DNA from: an uncultured Methanomassiliicoccales archaeon
GTDB taxonomy: Archaea > Thermoplasmatota > Thermoplasmata > Methanomassiliicoccales > Methanomethylophilaceae
Length of the DNA: 19,826 nucleotides
NCBI GenBank assembly: GCA_934234005.1
Contig: CAKQHC010000017.1
Location: forward strand, 1 to 19,826
Reading direction: 5' to 3'
Each line of letters opens with the position of its first letter. Positions within the stretch are counted from its first letter, which is position 1. The translations under genes and the position numbers were made by a program. The notes beneath the pieces were generated by a model that was not told the origin of the DNA, did not search any database, and saw nothing but the letters and a program-made list of their open reading frames with translations. Positions 951 to 19,266 of the stretch are shown in pieces.

Positions 951-1037
951 GTTTCCAATATAGCGACGTTTGTGTACGCGTTTTTGTCAATAACAGACCG
1001 TAAAACACAAGTGATACAAGAACGGCAGAATTATGGA

Positions 1038-1107
1038 GTCGGGGGAGGGAATCGAACCCCCATATGCGGATCTGCAGTCCGCCACATAGCCACTGTGTTA
1101 CCCCGAC
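1038..1107 (-). tRNA. tRNA-Cys (anticodon GCA)
   Basis: On the minus strand a 70-nt cloverleaf can be folded. The acceptor stem GTCGGGG/CCCCGAC pairs at all seven positions. The D arm has a short 3-bp stem (ACA/TGT) and a GTGGC-containing loop. The anticodon stem GCGGA/TCCGC encloses loop CTGCAGA with anticodon GCA (Cys). The T arm is GGGGG/CCCTC around TTCGATT, with one G-U pair. No 3' CCA is encoded and there is no intron. The gene stands alone, with its own promoter just upstream. Confidence 0.96.
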
Positions 1108-12457: not shown

Positions 12458-12469
12458 CAGGTGATTACG

Positions 12470-12895
12470 ATGTACAGCATGAGCCCTTTTGCAGGCCCTC
12501 TCCTCTCGGACGAGGATTCGATTAAGAAGTACAACGATGAGAATCAGTGGGGACTCCACATCGCCATCGACCTTGGAGAATGCGATCACGAAAAGATTTG
12601 CGACGGAGAGACAATCAAACAGTTCGCCATTGATCTGGCTAACTACATTGACATGAAAAGATACGGCGAACCGATTGCGGTGCGTTTCGGTGCCGATCCC
12701 AAGGTTCAGGGCTATTCGCTCATTCAATTAATCGAGACTTCGTGTATAGCGGGACATTTCGCGGAAGACACCGACAGAGCATTCATCGACGTATTCTCGT
12801 GCAAGCAGTTCCCTCCGGAGAAAACGGCCGAATACTGCAAAGAATACTTCGGCGCAAAGAAGATGCAATACGCAACTCTTTTCAGAAATATTTGA
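12470..12895 (+). CDS. S-adenosylmethionine decarboxylase-like protein (archaeal branch)
   Basis: A 141-residue protein of the AdoMet decarboxylase fold, in the methanogen branch usually annotated only as 'decarboxylase-related'. Landmarks are 'DENQWGLHIAIDLGECD', 'MKRYGEPIAVRFG', 'VQGYSLIQLIETSCIAGHFAE' and 'AFIDVFSCKQF'. Aligned to the small class 1B enzyme of Thermotoga (Ser55, pyruvoyl Ser63, His68, Cys83), this protein has Ser83, Ser91, His96 and Cys111 at identical spacings, so the catalytic set appears complete. The residue before the pyruvoyl Ser is Thr instead of Glu. Decarboxylated AdoMet would feed polyamine synthesis, but no polyamine gene is nearby. ATG 12470 is preferred over GTG 12461 because GGTGA lies 5 nt upstream of it. 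An intrinsic terminator follows. Confidence 0.82.
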   Translation: MYSMSPFAGPLLSDEDSIKKYNDENQWGLHIAIDLGECDHEKICDGETIKQFAIDLANYIDMKRYGEPIAVRFGADPKVQGYSLIQLIETSCIAGHFAEDTDRAFIDVFSCKQFPPEKTAEYCKEYFGAKKMQYATLFRNI

Positions 12896-13089: not shown

Positions 13090-13119
13090 ATTCAATTGTT
13101 GAAACAGGCAGGTGAATCA

Positions 13120-14343
13120 ATGAACACTAAAATCATTGCAATCGCCGTCGTAGCAGTCATAGCCGTTGCGGCTGTGGGCGCTTATGTCGTTCTTTCAAAC
13201 AACGACAGCGATGCCGATATGAACATCATCGGTAGGGTAAATACCGATGGATCGGCTATTCTTCTCAAAAACGGGGAGAATTCTGCCGATTATGTTACAA
13301 TTGTAGAAGGAGAGGAACCCAGTGAACCCCACTTGGGCGGAAACAGTAAATGGGTCGTTTTCAACAAAGACAACTGGGGCGGAAAGATATTCACTGATCC
13401 CGGAGCAAGCACCATTCAGCACGTTCAGTTGAATGATATTGCAGATGCCATGGACCTTAAATTTGTTCAGTATTCTACAGGCATTACTGTGTCTAAAGAC
13501 ACTTTGTACTTTATACCCGGTGTTCCCACATATGAAAAGTTTAAGTCTGAGCTTAACAACAATTCCGACATTGTAGGCGGAATTTTCTGGGAGCCTCAGA
13601 CCTCTGTTGCCACACTTTCTGGTGACAAAGATAAATGTAGCATGATGGTTACAACGAACGATTTGTTCCCCGGACACACCTGCTGTACTATTGCCGCACA
13701 GCATTCATACATCTCTTCCCACAAAGATGAGACTGTACGTTTCCTTGCAGCATATGTTGAATCTGTAAAGAAAATGACTGCGGCAATCAGTGAAAAATCC
13801 GGAGATAACTACGATAAAGTTATCGAAGTTGCTATGGATAAAGTATCAATGGGAGACGTTAAAGATGACCAGAAGAAAGCAGCGATTGAAAATGCATTCA
13901 AGTATGTCGTATACACGTATGCAGACAATTCTGCCGGTTCTCTTGACAACCTCGAGAAAGACATAGCTTCCATGGCAGAGAAATTCGCCAACAGCAAAAC
14001 CGCAAAGAATGATGCAGCCGCTCTCGGATTTGATTCATACGATGCTTTGGCCGATAAATTCGTTGACGGTTCGTACATGGAAGATGCAGTAAAATACAAA
14101 CTGCCCGAAAATGTCAGCACCGCAAACATTACAGTAGCTGTAATCGGAGGAGACATTCACCAGCTGGCTATCCATTACGGAATGGCAATGGGTATTTTCG
14201 ATGAATACGGCATCAAGATAAAACTGAGCACTCAGAACAACGGTCCTGCAGTATACACTGCAATGAAGAACAATGATGCCCAGTTTGGATTCATCGGTGC
14301 TCCTCCTATGACCATCAACTCTATGAACGATAAGACCATCTGA
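13120..14343 (+). CDS. ABC importer substrate-binding protein (SsuA/TauA/NMT1-like), apparently circularly permuted
   Basis: 407 residues. Residues 4-26 are a hydrophobic signal or anchor (IIAIAVVAVIAVAAVGAYVV) with no lipobox Cys, so it is probably tethered outside the membrane by that helix. Residues 35-250 carry motifs normally found in the middle and end of SsuA-type proteins: 'GRVNTDGSAILLKNG', 'FTDPGASTIQHVQLNDIA', 'GGIFWEPQTSVA', 'FPGHTCCTIAAQHSYI'. After a helical region (250-330), residues 337-407 carry what is normally the start of the mature protein: 'ITVAVIGGDIHQLAIHYGMAMGIFDEYGI', 'NGPAVYTAMKNNDAQFGFIGAPPMTI'. The order is therefore reversed end for end. ATG 13120 has AGGTGA 4 nt before it. 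Permease and ATPase genes follow at 17 nt and by overlap. Confidence 0.85.
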   Translation: MNTKIIAIAVVAVIAVAAVGAYVVLSNNDSDADMNIIGRVNTDGSAILLKNGENSADYVTIVEGEEPSEPHLGGNSKWVVFNKDNWGGKIFTDPGASTIQHVQLNDIADAMDLKFVQYSTGITVSKDTLYFIPGVPTYEKFKSELNNNSDIVGGIFWEPQTSVATLSGDKDKCSMMVTTNDLFPGHTCCTIAAQHSYISSHKDETVRFLAAYVESVKKMTAAISEKSGDNYDKVIEVAMDKVSMGDVKDDQKKAAIENAFKYVVYTYADNSAGSLDNLEKDIASMAEKFANSKTAKNDAAALGFDSYDALADKFVDGSYMEDAVKYKLPENVSTANITVAVIGGDIHQLAIHYGMAMGIFDEYGIKIKLSTQNNGPAVYTAMKNNDAQFGFIGAPPMTINSMNDKTI

Positions 14344-14360: not shown

Positions 14361-15182
14361 ATGGTTACCGTTCTCGGATTCAAATACGATCAATATAACA
14401 AATATCACAGGTGGGCAAGATCCGCAGTGATAACGGTCGTATCGCTCCTGATGTTTGTAGCGGTTTGGTGGGTTGTAGCAAAAATACAGTTGTTTGAGAC
14501 AATCCCTACACCACAGGATACGTTTGCGGCATTGGGGGATTTAATCCAGAACGGTGACCCCATTTCCAAACTTTCGTTGGGAACTCTGGTTTCCTCAAGT
14601 TTGAAAACATTCTTCAAAGGTACCGTAATCGCATTGGTGGTTGCGATACCTTTGGGACTGCTTCTTGGATTTGTCAAACCTCTCAGAGAGCTTGCAACGC
14701 CTATTATAGAGGTTCTCAGACCCATAGCACCTATCGCATGGGCACCCATATTCATTGCCACAAGAGCATTGGGATTCGAGTGGGGTCCCGCACTTGTTGT
14801 TTTCATGGGTATGCTTTTCCCGATTCTTACCAGCACAATGTTTGGTGTTCAGAGAATCGATTCGAATTGGATTGATGCATCCAAAACAATGGGAGCTTCC
14901 AACGAGCAGATTTTTGTTAAAGTTATTCTGCCCGCTTCGGTACCGTATATCCTTAACGGATTGAAGACAGCTCTCGGAATCGGATGGATGTGTATCGTTG
15001 CTGCTGAAATATTCGCAACATCTCTAGGAGGAATCGGATACTTCGTATACGAACAAGCTATGAATTTCAACTGGGATTATGCATTCTCGGGCATCATAGT
15101 GATTGCGGTTCTCGGTCTTCTCACAACCGGTGTTGCGGAACAGGTTTCTAAATTTGTCTCGAGAAGGATGGGATTGGAATGA
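14361..15182 (+). CDS. ABC transporter permease (SsuC/TauC-like)
   Basis: A 273-residue inner-membrane subunit with about six helices. The coupling 'EAA' loop reads 'IDASKTMGASNEQIFVKVILPASVPYILNGLKTALGIGW' (residues about 170-208), with the conserved Gly, and contacts the ATPase. Other family marks are 'IPTPQDTFAALGDLI' near the N-terminus and 'LRPIAPIAWAPIFIATRALGF' before the loop. AGAGGAAT lies about 6 nt upstream of the ATG. It follows the binding protein by 17 nt and overlaps the ATPase start by 4 nt (ATGA), so all three subunits are made together. The family imports sulfonates, taurine, nitrate or related anions; the substrate here is not readable from the permease. Confidence 0.95.
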   Translation: MVTVLGFKYDQYNKYHRWARSAVITVVSLLMFVAVWWVVAKIQLFETIPTPQDTFAALGDLIQNGDPISKLSLGTLVSSSLKTFFKGTVIALVVAIPLGLLLGFVKPLRELATPIIEVLRPIAPIAWAPIFIATRALGFEWGPALVVFMGMLFPILTSTMFGVQRIDSNWIDASKTMGASNEQIFVKVILPASVPYILNGLKTALGIGWMCIVAAEIFATSLGGIGYFVYEQAMNFNWDYAFSGIIVIAVLGLLTTGVAEQVSKFVSRRMGLE

Positions 15183-16012
15183 GCGAAAATATTACACACA
15201 TGCCAGAAACGGTTGTTTCTGAATCGTCCGAAGAATGGTCTTCCGATTCTGCGGATACTCTGATTTCCATCCGTAATCTTAGAAAGGTGTACAGGACGGA
15301 CGAGAGCGAAACAGTGGCAATCGATGATTTCAGTCTCAATATAAAAAAGGGCGAACTAATATCAATTGTCGGTCCTTCAGGATGCGGCAAGACTACTTTG
15401 CTGCGTATGATTGCAGGTCTTTTGGAATCCACATCAGGCAGTATTACCATAGACGGCAGGGAATGTAAAGCTCCCGGCCCTGATCGCGGTATGGTTTTCC
15501 AGGACTATGCTCTGTTTCCATGGAGATCCGTACGTAAGAACGTGGAATTCGGTCTTGAAATCGCAGGTGTTCCCAAAGAGGAACGTAAGGCAAAAGTCGA
15601 TGCAATGCTTGACATGGTCGGTCTCGAGAAATTCGCAGATGCCAGAATTCATGAATTGTCCGGAGGTATGAAACAGCGCGTTGCCATTGCAAGATCTTTG
15701 GTATCGGAACCCGATGTTATACTGATGGACGAGCCGTTCGGAGCTTTGGATGCACAGACAAGGAATCTGATGCAGGAGAGTCTTATCAAGATTCTTCAGC
15801 AGACAGATCAGACAGTCATTTTCATCACACATTCCGTAGATGAAGCCATTTATCTTTCAGACAGGGTTGTGGTTCTTACAAAGAGGCCCGCCAAGATAAA
15901 GACTGTATTCGACATTCCGTGGGCACGTCCCAGAGACCGTGCGTCACCCGAATTTACATCGCTGAGAAAAGAAATCCTTGAAGAGCTTCGCAGCGAGAAC
16001 GTTATGGATTGA
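15179..16012 (+). CDS. ABC transporter ATP-binding protein (SsuB/TauB-like)
   Basis: A 277-residue ATPase that powers the importer. Walker A 'GPSGCGKTT' is at 65-73, the Q-loop 'VFQDYALFPW' has Gln108, the signature 'LSGGMKQR' is at 160-167, Walker B 'VILMDEPFGALD' is near 180-191, and the H-loop is 'ITHSVDEA'. The phrase 'PWRSVRKNVEFGL' is characteristic of the nitrate/sulfonate/taurine subfamily. An acidic, Ser-rich extension of about 27 residues precedes the domain ('SESSEEWSSDSAD'), longer than usual. The start overlaps the permease stop in ATGA, and a ribosome-binding GGATGGGA lies in the permease's last codons. A strong hairpin terminator follows. Confidence 0.96.
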   Translation: MSENITHMPETVVSESSEEWSSDSADTLISIRNLRKVYRTDESETVAIDDFSLNIKKGELISIVGPSGCGKTTLLRMIAGLLESTSGSITIDGRECKAPGPDRGMVFQDYALFPWRSVRKNVEFGLEIAGVPKEERKAKVDAMLDMVGLEKFADARIHELSGGMKQRVAIARSLVSEPDVILMDEPFGALDAQTRNLMQESLIKILQQTDQTVIFITHSVDEAIYLSDRVVVLTKRPAKIKTVFDIPWARPRDRASPEFTSLRKEILEELRSENVMD

Positions 16013-16110: not shown

Positions 16111-16153
16111 AATTAACGGTTGATTTAAAGTTGGGGCCGAAGCCCCGTTAATT
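16111..16153 (-). terminator. Nested hairpin at the 3' end of the ramA operon
   Basis: On the minus strand an inner stem GGGGC-TTCG-GCCCC (16133-16146) is a UUCG tetraloop hairpin followed by AACTTTAAATC. A second pair of arms, AATTAACGG (16111-16119) and CCGTTAATT (16145-16153), is a perfect 9-bp inverted repeat that shares bases with the inner stem, so two mutually exclusive folds are possible. It begins at the last base of the ramA stop region and very likely ends that transcript. Confidence 0.65.
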
Positions 16154-17769
16154 CAGAATGCAAGTTTCAGGTTGTTGTACTTGTATACTTTGGTGGGACA
16201 TACGAACTGACATCTGTAGCATGCGGTTCCCAGGCAGTTTTTGGTCTTTACTATGATTTCTTTATCATCGGTAAGGGTCAATGCATGCTCGGGACATTCC
16301 TTTTCGCATTTTCCGCATCCGGTACATCCTTCCATTTTTCCGCGAAGTTCTGTTCCGATATCATGGAGGATGGTCATTCCCTTTTCTCCGAGATCGGGGA
16401 TATCACGTTTTACGACACGTATGACTTCGGGATGTCCTTTTGCTTTGGGAAGGGGTTGGATTCCGACGGCAGCGTTGTTTTCGTTGTACATCTCCATCGT
16501 CATGCCTTCGTCGCATACGGACAGTTCCTGCATGTAAATCTGTTCGAATATGGAATCTCCTGCGAACATGATGTGGTTTGCCCTGATTCCGTTGGCTATA
16601 TCCTGAAGTTTGTCCAAGAGTTCGGGATCTTTCAGAATGTCTGTGGCCATTGCAAGGGACGTGTTACCGTACTGGTAGATCTTCTTACATGACGGAGGTA
16701 CCAATCCGATGGATCTGGCTTTTTCCGCATCGACATATGTTCCGGATGCTCCGGCCATGTACATTATTCTCATGTCTTCGAATTTTATGCCGGCGTGTTC
16801 GAGAAGGGTGAAGTGTCCTGCTCTGATGGCGCCTATTGCTTTCAGCGCTTCCTGAACATCTTTGGAATCGATGTATACTCCGTCCTGCATGTGCAGTTTT
16901 CCGTCAGATGTACCTATCTTTCCTTTCTTCCACAGATGGTCGTCCATGGCGGCAGAAACTGCTGCAACAACGCCGGTTCCGGTAATACCTTTGGCTTTTC
17001 CGGACATAGGTCCGTAATCTTCGATTCTCTCAAGATTGAAGTCGACTTTGGCTCCGTCTTCGGGAATGATTTCGTCATTCAGAACTTTACAGATCCATTG
17101 ACAATCATATTCGAGATCGGAGATTGCACCGGGTCCCGCAAGCATACCGTATTTGATGGACTGTCCTTCCATGGCAGGTCCGGCGGCTGCGGAACCGGTG
17201 TAGATTTCATCACCGACTTTAAGGGCCATTTCCGCATTAGTACCGTAGTCGGTAACCATGCAGTTTTCTTTTTCCTCAAGGAATCCGCTCTTGTACATCA
17301 TGGCAAGGGCATCGGCACCGATTTCGTGTCTGATTGCCGGAGGAACGAGCAGTTCGCATCCGTCTTTGACATTGAGGCCGACATCCACGGCGGAGAATAC
17401 ACCCGCATCCCTTTTCTGTTCCTTGATGTTTCTTGCTTTGTGGGCATTTTCTCCGGCAAAGGCCAGATCGTCCACGGGTATTCCCTGGAACAGAGACAGT
17501 TGAATGGGGTTGCCGCATATGCTGACTCTCTCTACCTGGTTAAGGTCGATGCCCATTTTGGCAATGACCTTGTTTACAGTGTCGATGAGAATTTTGTGTG
17601 CGACATCTGTTCCTGCATTGATGCAGAATGTCAGATGATCCATGATGTTTGCACCGGGAAGCGGGTGACATTCGGTCACAACAGTGGATATTATCTTTCC
17701 GTTGGAAAGGTCCACGGCGTGACCTCTTGTTCCGCTTGTTCCGATATCGAGCGAGATTCCATAAGCCAT
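16153..17769 (-). CDS. ramA: Corrinoid-protein reductive activase RamA
   Basis: A 538-residue iron-sulfur protein that uses ATP to reduce inactive Co(II) corrinoid proteins to the Co(I) state needed in methylotrophic methanogenesis. Residues 1-470 form the ASKHA-like activase body: 'GISLDIGTSGTRGHAVDL', 'SICGNPIQLSLFQG', 'VTDYGTNAEMALK', 'MYMAGASGTYVD'. The C-terminus has two [4Fe-4S] motifs: Cys 482, 485, 488, 492 and Cys 512, 517, 520, 524. Size and layout match Methanosarcina RamA, which acts on methylamine corrinoid proteins. Here the nearest corrinoid gene is mtaC, so it may serve methanol as well. AGGAGGAAG lies 8 nt before ATG 17769, inside the His-rich gene's last codons; the previous stop directly abuts the ATG. 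Confidence 0.96.
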   Translation of the reverse strand: MAYGISLDIGTSGTRGHAVDLSNGKIISTVVTECHPLPGANIMDHLTFCINAGTDVAHKILIDTVNKVIAKMGIDLNQVERVSICGNPIQLSLFQGIPVDDLAFAGENAHKARNIKEQKRDAGVFSAVDVGLNVKDGCELLVPPAIRHEIGADALAMMYKSGFLEEKENCMVTDYGTNAEMALKVGDEIYTGSAAAGPAMEGQSIKYGMLAGPGAISDLEYDCQWICKVLNDEIIPEDGAKVDFNLERIEDYGPMSGKAKGITGTGVVAAVSAAMDDHLWKKGKIGTSDGKLHMQDGVYIDSKDVQEALKAIGAIRAGHFTLLEHAGIKFEDMRIMYMAGASGTYVDAEKARSIGLVPPSCKKIYQYGNTSLAMATDILKDPELLDKLQDIANGIRANHIMFAGDSIFEQIYMQELSVCDEGMTMEMYNENNAAVGIQPLPKAKGHPEVIRVVKRDIPDLGEKGMTILHDIGTELRGKMEGCTGCGKCEKECPEHALTLTDDKEIIVKTKNCLGTACYRCQFVCPTKVYKYNNLKLAF

Positions 17770-18378
17770 TTAGTTCTTCCTCCTGAACCTGTCTAAAAAT
17801 GATTTCTTCTTGGGTTCTTCGGTTTTCACCTCTGAATCCTCATGTTTGTGATCGTGACAATGACACTCCTCTCCGTCATGGTGGTGGTGATGTTCGTGCT
17901 CATGATCGTGGTCATGGTGGTGATCGTGTCCGCAGTGGCATTCCACATGTTCGTCCAGTTCGTAGTCGAGGCCGGAATCATCGACTGCGTGGAACATTCT
18001 GTGTCTTAGTTCGTGTTCGTCAACGTCAAGGACAGCGCACATAAATGTGAATTTTACCTTCTCCTGAGGTTCCAACGTTCCGTGGTGTTCCACACCGTTC
18101 TCCATGTTGGTAAGATTCAGGGTAAGTCCTGTTCCGTCTTCCAACGTAACGGCTGCTTTGATGTGTCCGAGCATCATTCCTGATTCGTCTTCCACCCATT
18201 TTCCGATGGTCAGAAGCGCTTTGGCGAATCTAGCTTCGGCGTCCGCATTCCAGCAGTTTATTGTTCCCGTCAGACCAACGGCGCATCCTCCGGCCTGTTC
18301 GATGGAGGTCTGCTCGTGGTGGTGATCGTGATCATGGCAGTGGCATTCTTCCCCGTCGTGGTGGTGTTCTTCGCTCAT
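17770..18378 (-). CDS. Histidine-rich metal-binding protein of the ramA operon
   Basis: A 202-residue cytosolic protein with His/Cys/Asp-rich ends around an ordered middle. The N-terminus has 'HHHDGEECHCHDHDHHH' and the C-terminal third has a long His/Asp/Glu stretch containing the same unit 'HHDGEECHCHDH', so the two ends share a repeated metal-binding unit. Residues about 28-140 look like a compact domain ('GGCAVGLTGTINCWNADAEARFAKALLTIGKWV', 'HGTLEPQEKVKFTFMCAVLDVDEHEL') that I do not recognise. The tail is strongly basic (EPKKKSFLDRFRRKN). The gene overlaps the COG0523 GTPase by 4 nt (ATGA) and abuts ramA. Storage or delivery of Ni, Co, Zn or Fe to the corrinoid system is the natural inference; the metal cannot be told from sequence. 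Confidence 0.85.
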   Translation of the reverse strand: MSEEHHHDGEECHCHDHDHHHEQTSIEQAGGCAVGLTGTINCWNADAEARFAKALLTIGKWVEDESGMMLGHIKAAVTLEDGTGLTLNLTNMENGVEHHGTLEPQEKVKFTFMCAVLDVDEHELRHRMFHAVDDSGLDYELDEHVECHCGHDHHHDHDHEHEHHHHHDGEECHCHDHKHEDSEVKTEEPKKKSFLDRFRRKN

Positions 18379-18962
18379 TGCATCATCTCATATACTTTAT
18401 CCATGTTCTCTCCGGTCTTGGCGGATATAGGCATAACTTTCTTGCCGGGGAATTCCTTGGCGAACCATGCTTCGATTTCCTCAACCTGTCCCGGTTTTGC
18501 AAGATCGCATTTGTTAATTAGAACGAAATCTGCATTGGACATCTGCATTTTGAAGAACTGTGCTTTCTTTTCGAGAAGCATCGAGAACCTCTGTACGTCG
18601 GTGACTCCGACGATGTAACACTCTTCTTCATCAATCATAGATACGCGTACAAGCTCTTTCACTTTGTGGGGAAGTGCGAGACCGGTCGGTTCGATAATGA
18701 TAATGTCGGGATCAATGTCGTTCTTAATGTTCTTAAGTGCAGCCTGCAGGGTTCCGGAAAGGGAGCAACAGATACAACCGTCGGGAAGTTCGATGGAATC
18801 ATATCCTTCGGCTTTCAGGGTAGCCCCATCGACACCGATTTCTCCCGATTCGTTAACAAGGAGCGCAGTTTTTAAACCGCGTTTGGTGTACATTGAAGCG
18901 AACTTCATCAGAAGGGTGGTTTTCCCGCTTCCGAGGAAGCCTCCCATAATATATACATACAT
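18375..18962 (-). CDS. COG0523-family GTPase (CobW/HypB-like metallochaperone), short form
   Basis: A 195-residue G3E-type P-loop GTPase. Walker A 'GGFLGSGKTT' is at residues 7-16, the metal-binding CxCC motif 'GCICCSLSG' has Cys 63, 65 and 66, Walker B lies in 'IIIIEPTG', and the guanine motif 'NKCD' is at 150-153. These proteins hand metals to target proteins. This one lacks the C-terminal CobW_C domain of full-length members, and its partner His-rich protein may replace the usual His stretch. ATG 18962 is chosen because a TATA box centred at 18987 places the transcript start on it; ATG 18974 is an alternative, and the frame stays open to 19070. Next gene: ATGA overlap. Confidence 0.92.
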   Translation of the reverse strand: MYVYIMGGFLGSGKTTLLMKFASMYTKRGLKTALLVNESGEIGVDGATLKAEGYDSIELPDGCICCSLSGTLQAALKNIKNDIDPDIIIIEPTGLALPHKVKELVRVSMIDEEECYIVGVTDVQRFSMLLEKKAQFFKMQMSNADFVLINKCDLAKPGQVEEIEAWFAKEFPGKKVMPISAKTGENMDKVYEMMQ

Positions 18963-18980
18963 GAACAAACCCATTTCATT

Positions 18981-18992
18981 TCTAGTATAAAC
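18981..18992 (-). promoter_or_regulatory. TATA box of the GTPase-His-rich-ramA operon
   Basis: Minus-strand GTTTATACTAGA is centred 25 nt upstream of ATG 18962 with no Shine-Dalgarno sequence between, predicting a leaderless transcript. Confidence 0.5.
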
Positions 18993-19266
18993 GGTTCTTC
19001 TTCGAACGCGCGGTTTTGTAATTTTTCGGAGTTGTCCAAGAACATAGCGATCTGTTGTAAACCCATTCATCCATCATTTTTCGGGGTATATTCGGTATAA
19101 GCGGAAAATATGCAGTAAATATTATATATGATGTATGTGCGCGCGGGCATTTTTATCCATCAAATTTTATTTTTCGTATTGCATGATGGATGGCCATTCA
19201 TCCAACAAAACATAAAATTTAAATAATAGTGGTTTAAACAATTCAGTTGGATATTTATGTCCGATT
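18993..19266. promoter_or_regulatory. Divergent control region with repeated ATCCA motifs
   Basis: This gene-free stretch separates the ramA operon from mtaC. It holds an 11-base direct repeat CCATTCATCCA at 19063-19073 and 19194-19204. ATCCATCA occurs at 19069-19076 and 19155-19162. An inverted pair TGGATG-GCCATT-CATCCA lies at 19187-19204, and another TTGGAT at 19247-19252. It is also very AT-rich, with extra TATA-like tracts (for example near 19210-19225). The arrangement looks like several binding sites for one regulator, perhaps controlling both directions. No ORF of convincing quality is present. Confidence 0.5.

Follow-up and report, generated by a model that had tools for sequence, protein, structure and literature searches.

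The gene at positions 13120 to 14343 of contig CAKQHC010000017.1, a stretch of 19,826 nucleotides from an uncultured Methanomassiliicoccales archaeon that is referred to in its full length as the window, encodes an ATP-binding cassette (ABC) substrate-binding protein whose chain runs in rotated order. Its residues 335-407 form the beginning of a binding protein of the SsuA/TauA/NrtA type and residues 34-327 form the remainder, and relatives carry all three rotations of the three blocks that make up the domain. The gene product is very probably a permuted binding protein of an ABC importer, predicted to be anchored in the membrane and to feed the adjacent permease and ATPase, in a family that has likely undergone repeated in-place rotation through tandem duplication with subsequent trimming. 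An earlier note, made from the window sequence alone, had proposed the circular permutation, which is confirmed here; further rotations in relatives, including a return to the canonical order, and standing tandem copies are findings beyond it. The window organism is likely akin to gut methane-makers, and its relatives are Methanomassiliicoccales-type archaea by record title.

Rotated chain of the binding protein

The open reading frame (ORF) is intact, running on the forward strand from an ATG at 13120 to a stop codon at 14341-14343 (407 amino acids), with a Shine-Dalgarno-like AGGTGA immediately 5' of the ATG and an alternative in-frame TTG start at 13096. Its product opens with a hydrophobic helix (residues 3-26), followed by a domain that begins with NIIGRVNTDGS and ends with GAPPMTINSMNDKTI. 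Residues 1-26 (13120..13197) are a predicted membrane anchor, based on the hydrophobic stretch and a helix (H3-26) modelled with a low predicted local distance difference test (pLDDT) score. Canonical order, as in SsuA and TauA, is A-B-C, in which A is the b1-a1-b2-a2-b3-a3 unit (b, beta-strand; a, helix), followed by B and then C; the order of the window protein is B-C-A. Block B, the canonical middle, comes first here (residues 34-147, 13219..13560, from E34 to H138-147). Block C and its helical tail, the canonical last part as judged from profile matches and conservation (residues 148-327, 13561..14100), contain the motif H186-x-C188-C189. Block A, canonically N-terminal, is C-terminal in this protein (residues 335-407, 14122..14340) and contains D345 and H347. 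All three blocks lie on the forward strand, and residues conserved across all orders include G44, S45, P94, I99, Q100, H186, C188, C189, D345, H347, G375, G393 and P396.

The rotated order is seen most directly with a hidden Markov model (HMM) trained on 13 proteins of canonical order, of which 10 are from Methanobrevibacter, three from other archaeal loci and none from the close clade. On the native window protein it matched in three pieces in rotated order: residues 35-52 matched model positions 72-89, with just 1.4 bits, residues 87-268 matched positions 99-266, and residues 337-405 matched positions 2-68. When the chain was turned at residue 331, the outer pieces fused into a continuous match over 2-89 and the full score rose from 104.7 to 124.4 bits. 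Another HMM, made from six close A-B-C proteins, matched the native protein in two pieces (85-360, then 2-71) and the turned chain in a single match of 240.7 bits over 2-360, with a small rise in full-sequence score from 236.8 to 241.5. When the distant canonical HMM was scanned against all rotations and the best single-domain score was taken as the measure, neither the window protein (66.9 in native order, 67.2 at best) nor the relative P0016 gained. HMMER there splits the part comprising A and the first piece of B (A-B0) and the rest into two domains; full-sequence score and domain order are the better reading. When 27 hand-picked proteins were aligned to the window domain, single and doubled, the ratio of the scores was 1.00-1.01 in five of five B-C-A proteins and 1.23-1.58 in all 22 of the others.

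General family profiles agree with this picture. PF13379 matched the window protein with 29 bits, above the gathering cut-off of 24.7, and profile positions 25-67 fell on residues 355-398; residues 1-330 alone matched positions 194-238 at residues 175-219, below the cut-off. The profile start thus lies at the C-terminus instead of following the usual collinear block order, which makes the protein a permuted variant, collinearity not being part of the Pfam definition. Both parts taken separately matched the family, each with weak Pfam and NCBIfam scores. Automatic annotation can miss such a permutation, as Pfam flags only residues 355-398.

The AlphaFold model has a mean pLDDT of 92.8 and a predicted template modelling score (pTM) of 0.88, with b-a-b-a-b-a at residues 335-403, and its predicted fold is that of a two-lobe binding protein. 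CmpA, NrtA, TauA and SsuA top its structural match list, and in chain-order structural alignment residues 29-328 fit the solved chains from about 45-85 residues in, so that the skipped stretch corresponds to what the C-terminal block supplies. The superposition on SsuA-like folds anticipated by the earlier note is therefore supported by a confident model and by an alignment consistent with a displaced block, the latter for residues 29-328 only. Its statement that the new C-terminus lies within the domain also held, but the end falls in a loop between secondary-structure elements and not inside one. Foldseek with the whole model gave a single match at E <= 0.001 (3un6), and a sequence search of the PDB with the window protein alone returned chance matches only (best E 0.15). 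TpMglB-2, a permuted binding protein considered below, was not in the Foldseek or VIA match lists for the window model, and absence from these lists does not exclude a likeness.

Block orders among homologues

Order labels were assigned from HMM block order. In the first homologue set (the best 120 of 125 matches) 110 proteins were B-C-A, six C-A-B and four partial. A second protein search, from locus L051, added the best 120 of 184 matches, giving 237 distinct proteins, of which 185 were B-C-A, 41 C-A-B, eight A-B-C (including the fragments P0123 and P0196, the end of the latter resembling a C-A-B protein) and three partial. At the gene level, 173 distinct ORFs from 246 loci comprised 90 B-C-A, 48 C-A-B, 25 A-B-C, four double B-C-A and one double C-A-B, the rest being three partial ORFs and two pieces of one gene with unread bases. 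Twenty of the 25 A-B-C ORFs belong to Methanobrevibacter and were used as outgroup. Within the order Methanomassiliicoccales, 136 of 147 genomes have a match. The retrieved matches allowed 132 genomes to be classified: 76 hold only B-C-A, 42 only C-A-B, four only A-B-C, three double B-C-A and one double C-A-B, while two combine B-C-A with C-A-B, one combines B-C-A with a double and three have partial or broken genes. The closest pairs of unlike order are 69% identical for A-B-C and C-A-B, 64% for B-C-A and C-A-B, and 55% for A-B-C and B-C-A.

Tandem forms stand beside these single domains. A search with a double as query yielded 11 doubles (744-770 amino acids) and one triple (1122 amino acids) among 22 proteins new to the set, which supports the route of tandem duplication and subsequent trimming suggested in the earlier note. 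The doubles P0240-P0244 are mutually about 98-99% identical, and P0238 is 98% identical to the double used as query. The triple, P0239, has three B-C-A domains in tandem.

The same note had named a competing account of its own, in which residues 335-407 are the start of a second full domain lost by frameshift or assembly error. The doubles in relatives make such a loss conceivable, but the first domain comes without its own block A, residues 335-403 are confidently predicted within the fold, and the permease gene starts 17 bases past the stop codon. Moreover, related archaea carry the same B-C-A arrangement, and since 185 of 237 homologues share it, frameshift or assembly error is no explanation. 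No single domain with a block A on either end was seen among the classified block orders (173 ORFs, 237 proteins), and a truncated two-domain protein is hardly credible. An artefact of assembly or annotation, in which collapsed tandem repeats yield false orders, draws on the fact that most loci are metagenome-assembled by their record titles. Against it, the orders repeat in independent genomes and samples and some are placed on long contigs (G083 has a B-C-A double at 1.58 Mb, G041 has C-A-B on a contig of more than 850 kb and G138 has A-B-C at 1.19 Mb), and in the inspected loci each order is an open frame with the permease gene next. In addition, an arrangement of anchor followed by C cannot result from the collapse of a B-C-A tandem. 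Such an artefact is thus very improbable.

Several unusual family members were also seen. L121 (G145) has two C-A-B domains in tandem, the first without the CC, H-Q and GxPP motifs, as if decaying. L141 and L142 (G130 and G129) are C-A-B proteins of 800-817 amino acids with a long C-terminal extension that is fibronectin-III-like by eye; their CC motif is gone and they have likely been converted to surface proteins. L175 and P0259 are B-C-A proteins with about 80 extra C-terminal residues; the precomputed Pfam domain of P0259 is PF13620. L027 and L030 are contigs labelled Rhodocyclaceae that carry the archaeal gene with its permease, likely a binning contamination.

Order changes at one chromosomal site

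Loci with the same flanking genes hold B-C-A, C-A-B or A-B-C. The shared gene order is Sel1, DUF362, S-adenosylmethionine decarboxylase, binding protein, permease, ATPase, RACo, His-rich protein and CobW, preceded ahead of Sel1 by three genes that, named from sequence, we take to be SufS, ThpR and LMWP. In the C-A-B loci L045, L046 and L048 the window gene order is found on both sides with small gaps, where a major facilitator superfamily (MFS) or SWEET gene is missing or a second DUF362 match is present (L045, L048). The A-B-C locus L051, on a 7 kb contig, has Sel1, DUF362, the decarboxylase, the binding protein, permease and ATPase, and after rotation its protein is 68% identical to that of L048. 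Same flanks, different orders and close identity together indicate that the change occurred within the gene, between the anchor and the stop codon. The decarboxylase directly upstream (12461..12895, +; PF02675, E 1.5e-22) serves as site marker, being in the same position in L045, L046, L048 and L051. Downstream, and in the same operon, follow the ABC permease (14361..15182, +) and then the ABC ATPase (15179..16012, +). A permease match was found in 66 of the 67 loci L001-L067, directly after the binding-protein gene in those inspected for gene order, and an ATPase match in 61.

In window numbering, five loops act as chain ends. The seam between canonical C-terminus and N-terminus, residues 327-335 (14098..14124, +), is the cut loop of A-B-C relatives, as placed by doubled-domain alignment of P0121, P0130, P0132, P0136 and P0148, and 407/34 are the ends of B-C-A proteins. 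Loop 118-127 (13471..13500, +) is the cut of distant C-A-B type i, placed partly by eye from the termini of L054 and L224; the type i label covers every distant C-A-B row with individual cuts unchecked, and L063 is nearer type ii by appearance. The cut of type ii (P0068-P0073) lies in loop ~146-152 (13555..13575, +) and that of type iii (L041, L045, L046, L048, L049) in loop 168-172 (13621..13635, +), the type iii cuts using the same loop in two clades of the tree. All five loops directly precede a beta-strand in the model and four of the five follow a helix, a pattern noticed post hoc.

Trees were built from proteins rotated into common register. The first rotated set omitted five ORFs and used 116 of 182 rows, the second omitted 11 partial proteins and kept 92 of 399 rows, and a careful tree comprised 77 rotated rows (20 of the 92 dropped, five added). 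In the careful tree the close A-B-C and C-A-B rows are nested in a B-C-A clade (support 100/99, and further starred nodes). Approximately unbiased (AU) tests rejected a single clade of all 12 A-B-C rows (p 2.5e-7), of B-C-A plus doubles (p 1e-68) and of 13 C-A-B type iii rows (p 3e-30), and starred branches force at least four label changes each for B-C-A, type iii and A-B-C. As the Methanobrevibacter outgroup and the solved relatives are canonical, parsimony suggests that the close A-B-C rows regained canonical order, rebuilt from a permuted ancestor.

Based on these patterns, a route through tandem copies may be proposed. Through a leash of some 7-11 residues leading into the first strand (7 in the window model, 11 in P0127), the N-terminal helix would tether the protein to the membrane, and the two lobes would close on the ligand and dock on the permease in the manner of other such importers. 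With a second copy in tandem after the anchor, every rotation of the domain would be within reach: a deletion from the anchor into copy one, combined with a stop within copy two, would leave one domain in a different register and would affect neither the anchor nor the downstream genes. Perhaps, at a little short of an even chance, the gene behaves as a ring in which unequal exchange produces arrays behind a fixed anchor and trimming sets a new register, the cycle repeating even to the point of canonical order. Just as tentatively, fold and ligand site would then stay constant while the point of leash entry evolves. With all five cuts positioned just before a beta-strand, the leash would likely enter on the face away from the cleft.

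Several observations weigh against a history of many such events. AU tests did not reject monophyly of the six close A-B-C rows (p 0.28), so that a single return to canonical order suffices, or of the six type iii rows in the L051 clade (p 0.17); a set of 11 type iii rows gave p 0.019. A common origin of L041, L118 and type ii was not rejected either (p 0.64), and its likelihood exceeded that of the free tree. The subsets of L041, L118 and type ii rows and of the six near A-B-C rows were picked after viewing the first tree. Parsimony gave 8, 11 and 10 order changes on three samplings, making the number of events soft, and the deep nodes (the first split of A-B-C, C-A-B type i and B-C-A) are poorly resolved. 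Standing tandems occur only in the B-C-A or distant C-A-B register, with no direct parent of the close C-A-B and A-B-C clades found, and the metagenomic origin of most loci applies here too. A search for half-trimmed forms gave 14 of 413 proteins with an alignment span above 1.05 domains (proteins above 650 amino acids excluded), several of which extend into the anchor; among four inspected, only P0250 resembles a trimmed double, with B-C-A followed by a decayed second B block, a possible relic (contig end unchecked).

Alternatively, the gene could have been split into A and B-C pieces that were rejoined in other orders without a tandem intermediate. Fission and fusion lead to the same end products and are, in the available text of PMC3320104, one of two main models of permutation. 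Yet no clear split pair was found among the 173 distinct ORFs: three B-C-only ORFs were taken as partial genes (contig ends unchecked) and the sole A/C split, L130, has internal unread bases. The several cut loops mean that this route needs several independent splits, and doubles and a triple do exist, which leaves fission and fusion improbable and tandem duplication with trimming the preferred route.

In nature, circular permutation is mostly encountered as one ancient event separating distant relatives, and methyltransferases are known in several orders. In the family described here, a single orthologous gene, at the same site within one archaeal order, takes all three rotations, and pairs of unlike order share up to 69% identity. 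Textbook examples of permutation by duplication are DNA methyltransferases and saposin/swaposin, where, in the consulted part of PMC3320104, it proceeds via tandem intermediates as in the window family. The window family differs in that a two-lobe binding protein rotates as positional orthologues in one operon; by parsimony it has also returned to canonical order. TpMglB-2 (Tp0684), in the portion of PMC4990184 available, is a natural circularly permuted ABC binding protein for which the class 'Type Ic / Cluster Bc' was proposed, and it is membrane-tethered, as is predicted for the window protein. It binds glucose, however, and its relationship is to MglB of E. coli (Type I/Cluster B); one permuted order is described, and tandems and a return to canonical order, both seen in the window family, are not described for it in that portion. 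Among open-licence papers, no report was found of repeated permutation, or of all rotations and back, in a binding-protein family, nor of permuted binding proteins in Methanomassiliicoccales. As all orders, doubles, a triple and a nested return occur in one family, the route can be tested order by order and intermediate by intermediate. The family also lends itself to asking directly if tethering governs where binding proteins have their chain ends, an issue already brought up for Tp0684.

Possible ligand and neighbouring genes

The weakest part of our reading concerns the ligand, which may be a metal ion, a metal complex or a corrinoid, judging from neighbouring genes and the conserved His, Cys and Asp residues. 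On the reverse strand lie genes for a RACo-like reductive activator of corrinoid proteins (16153..17769; PF14574, E 1.6e-64), a His-rich protein recognised from its sequence (17770..18378; no Pfam match at E 1e-5) and a CobW-type G3E GTPase (18375..19070; PF02492, E 2.5e-38), neighbours that weakly point to a metal or corrinoid. Among the matches listed, 99 genomes have both CobW and the binding protein, and in at least 51 of them the two are no more than 10 kb apart, a proximity far above chance for few copies per 1.5 Mb; no distant C-A-B type i genome is among these 51. His-rich genes occur in 29 and RACo-like genes in 22 of loci L001-L067.

The window protein shares with SsuA, TauA, NrtA and CmpA (PF13379, PF09084) the predicted fold, homologous blocks and the class of adjacent permease and ATPase, whereas it differs in its rotated chain, predicted anchor helix and conserved D-x-H and H-x-C-C, and is too distant for SsuA and TauA models. 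A sulfonate, taurine or coenzyme M-like ligand would follow from SsuA/TauA/NrtA-type proteins being the nearest solved relatives. The scores, however, are far under the curated SsuA and TauA cut-offs (24.7 bits against 163.5 for the SsuA model TIGR01728), the conserved H-x-C-C is absent from the aligned TauA and SsuA (CC is present in 3un6), and coenzyme M synthesis was inferred from three genomes of the order in the accessible text of PMC4153887. Uptake of such compounds is therefore unlikely and ranks below the metal or corrinoid reading.

The SAO (Sec-assisted organometallic) transport system, comprising SaoX, SaoP and SaoA according to the available part of PMC13188914, provides the best NCBIfam names for the window permease (SaoP/TauC/NtrB) and ATPase (SaoA/NtrCD), and canonical relatives of the binding protein match SaoX, all below curated cut-offs. 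For the SaoX model NF040735 (cut-off 300 bits), the best tested canonical relative scored 101.7 and window residues 331-407 alone 13.2, the whole window protein being unlisted.

Searching the window and five of the loci for RNA families gave a tRNA and nothing else. This tRNA gene (1037-1107, reverse strand) overlaps several listed ORFs, which are doubtful for that reason.
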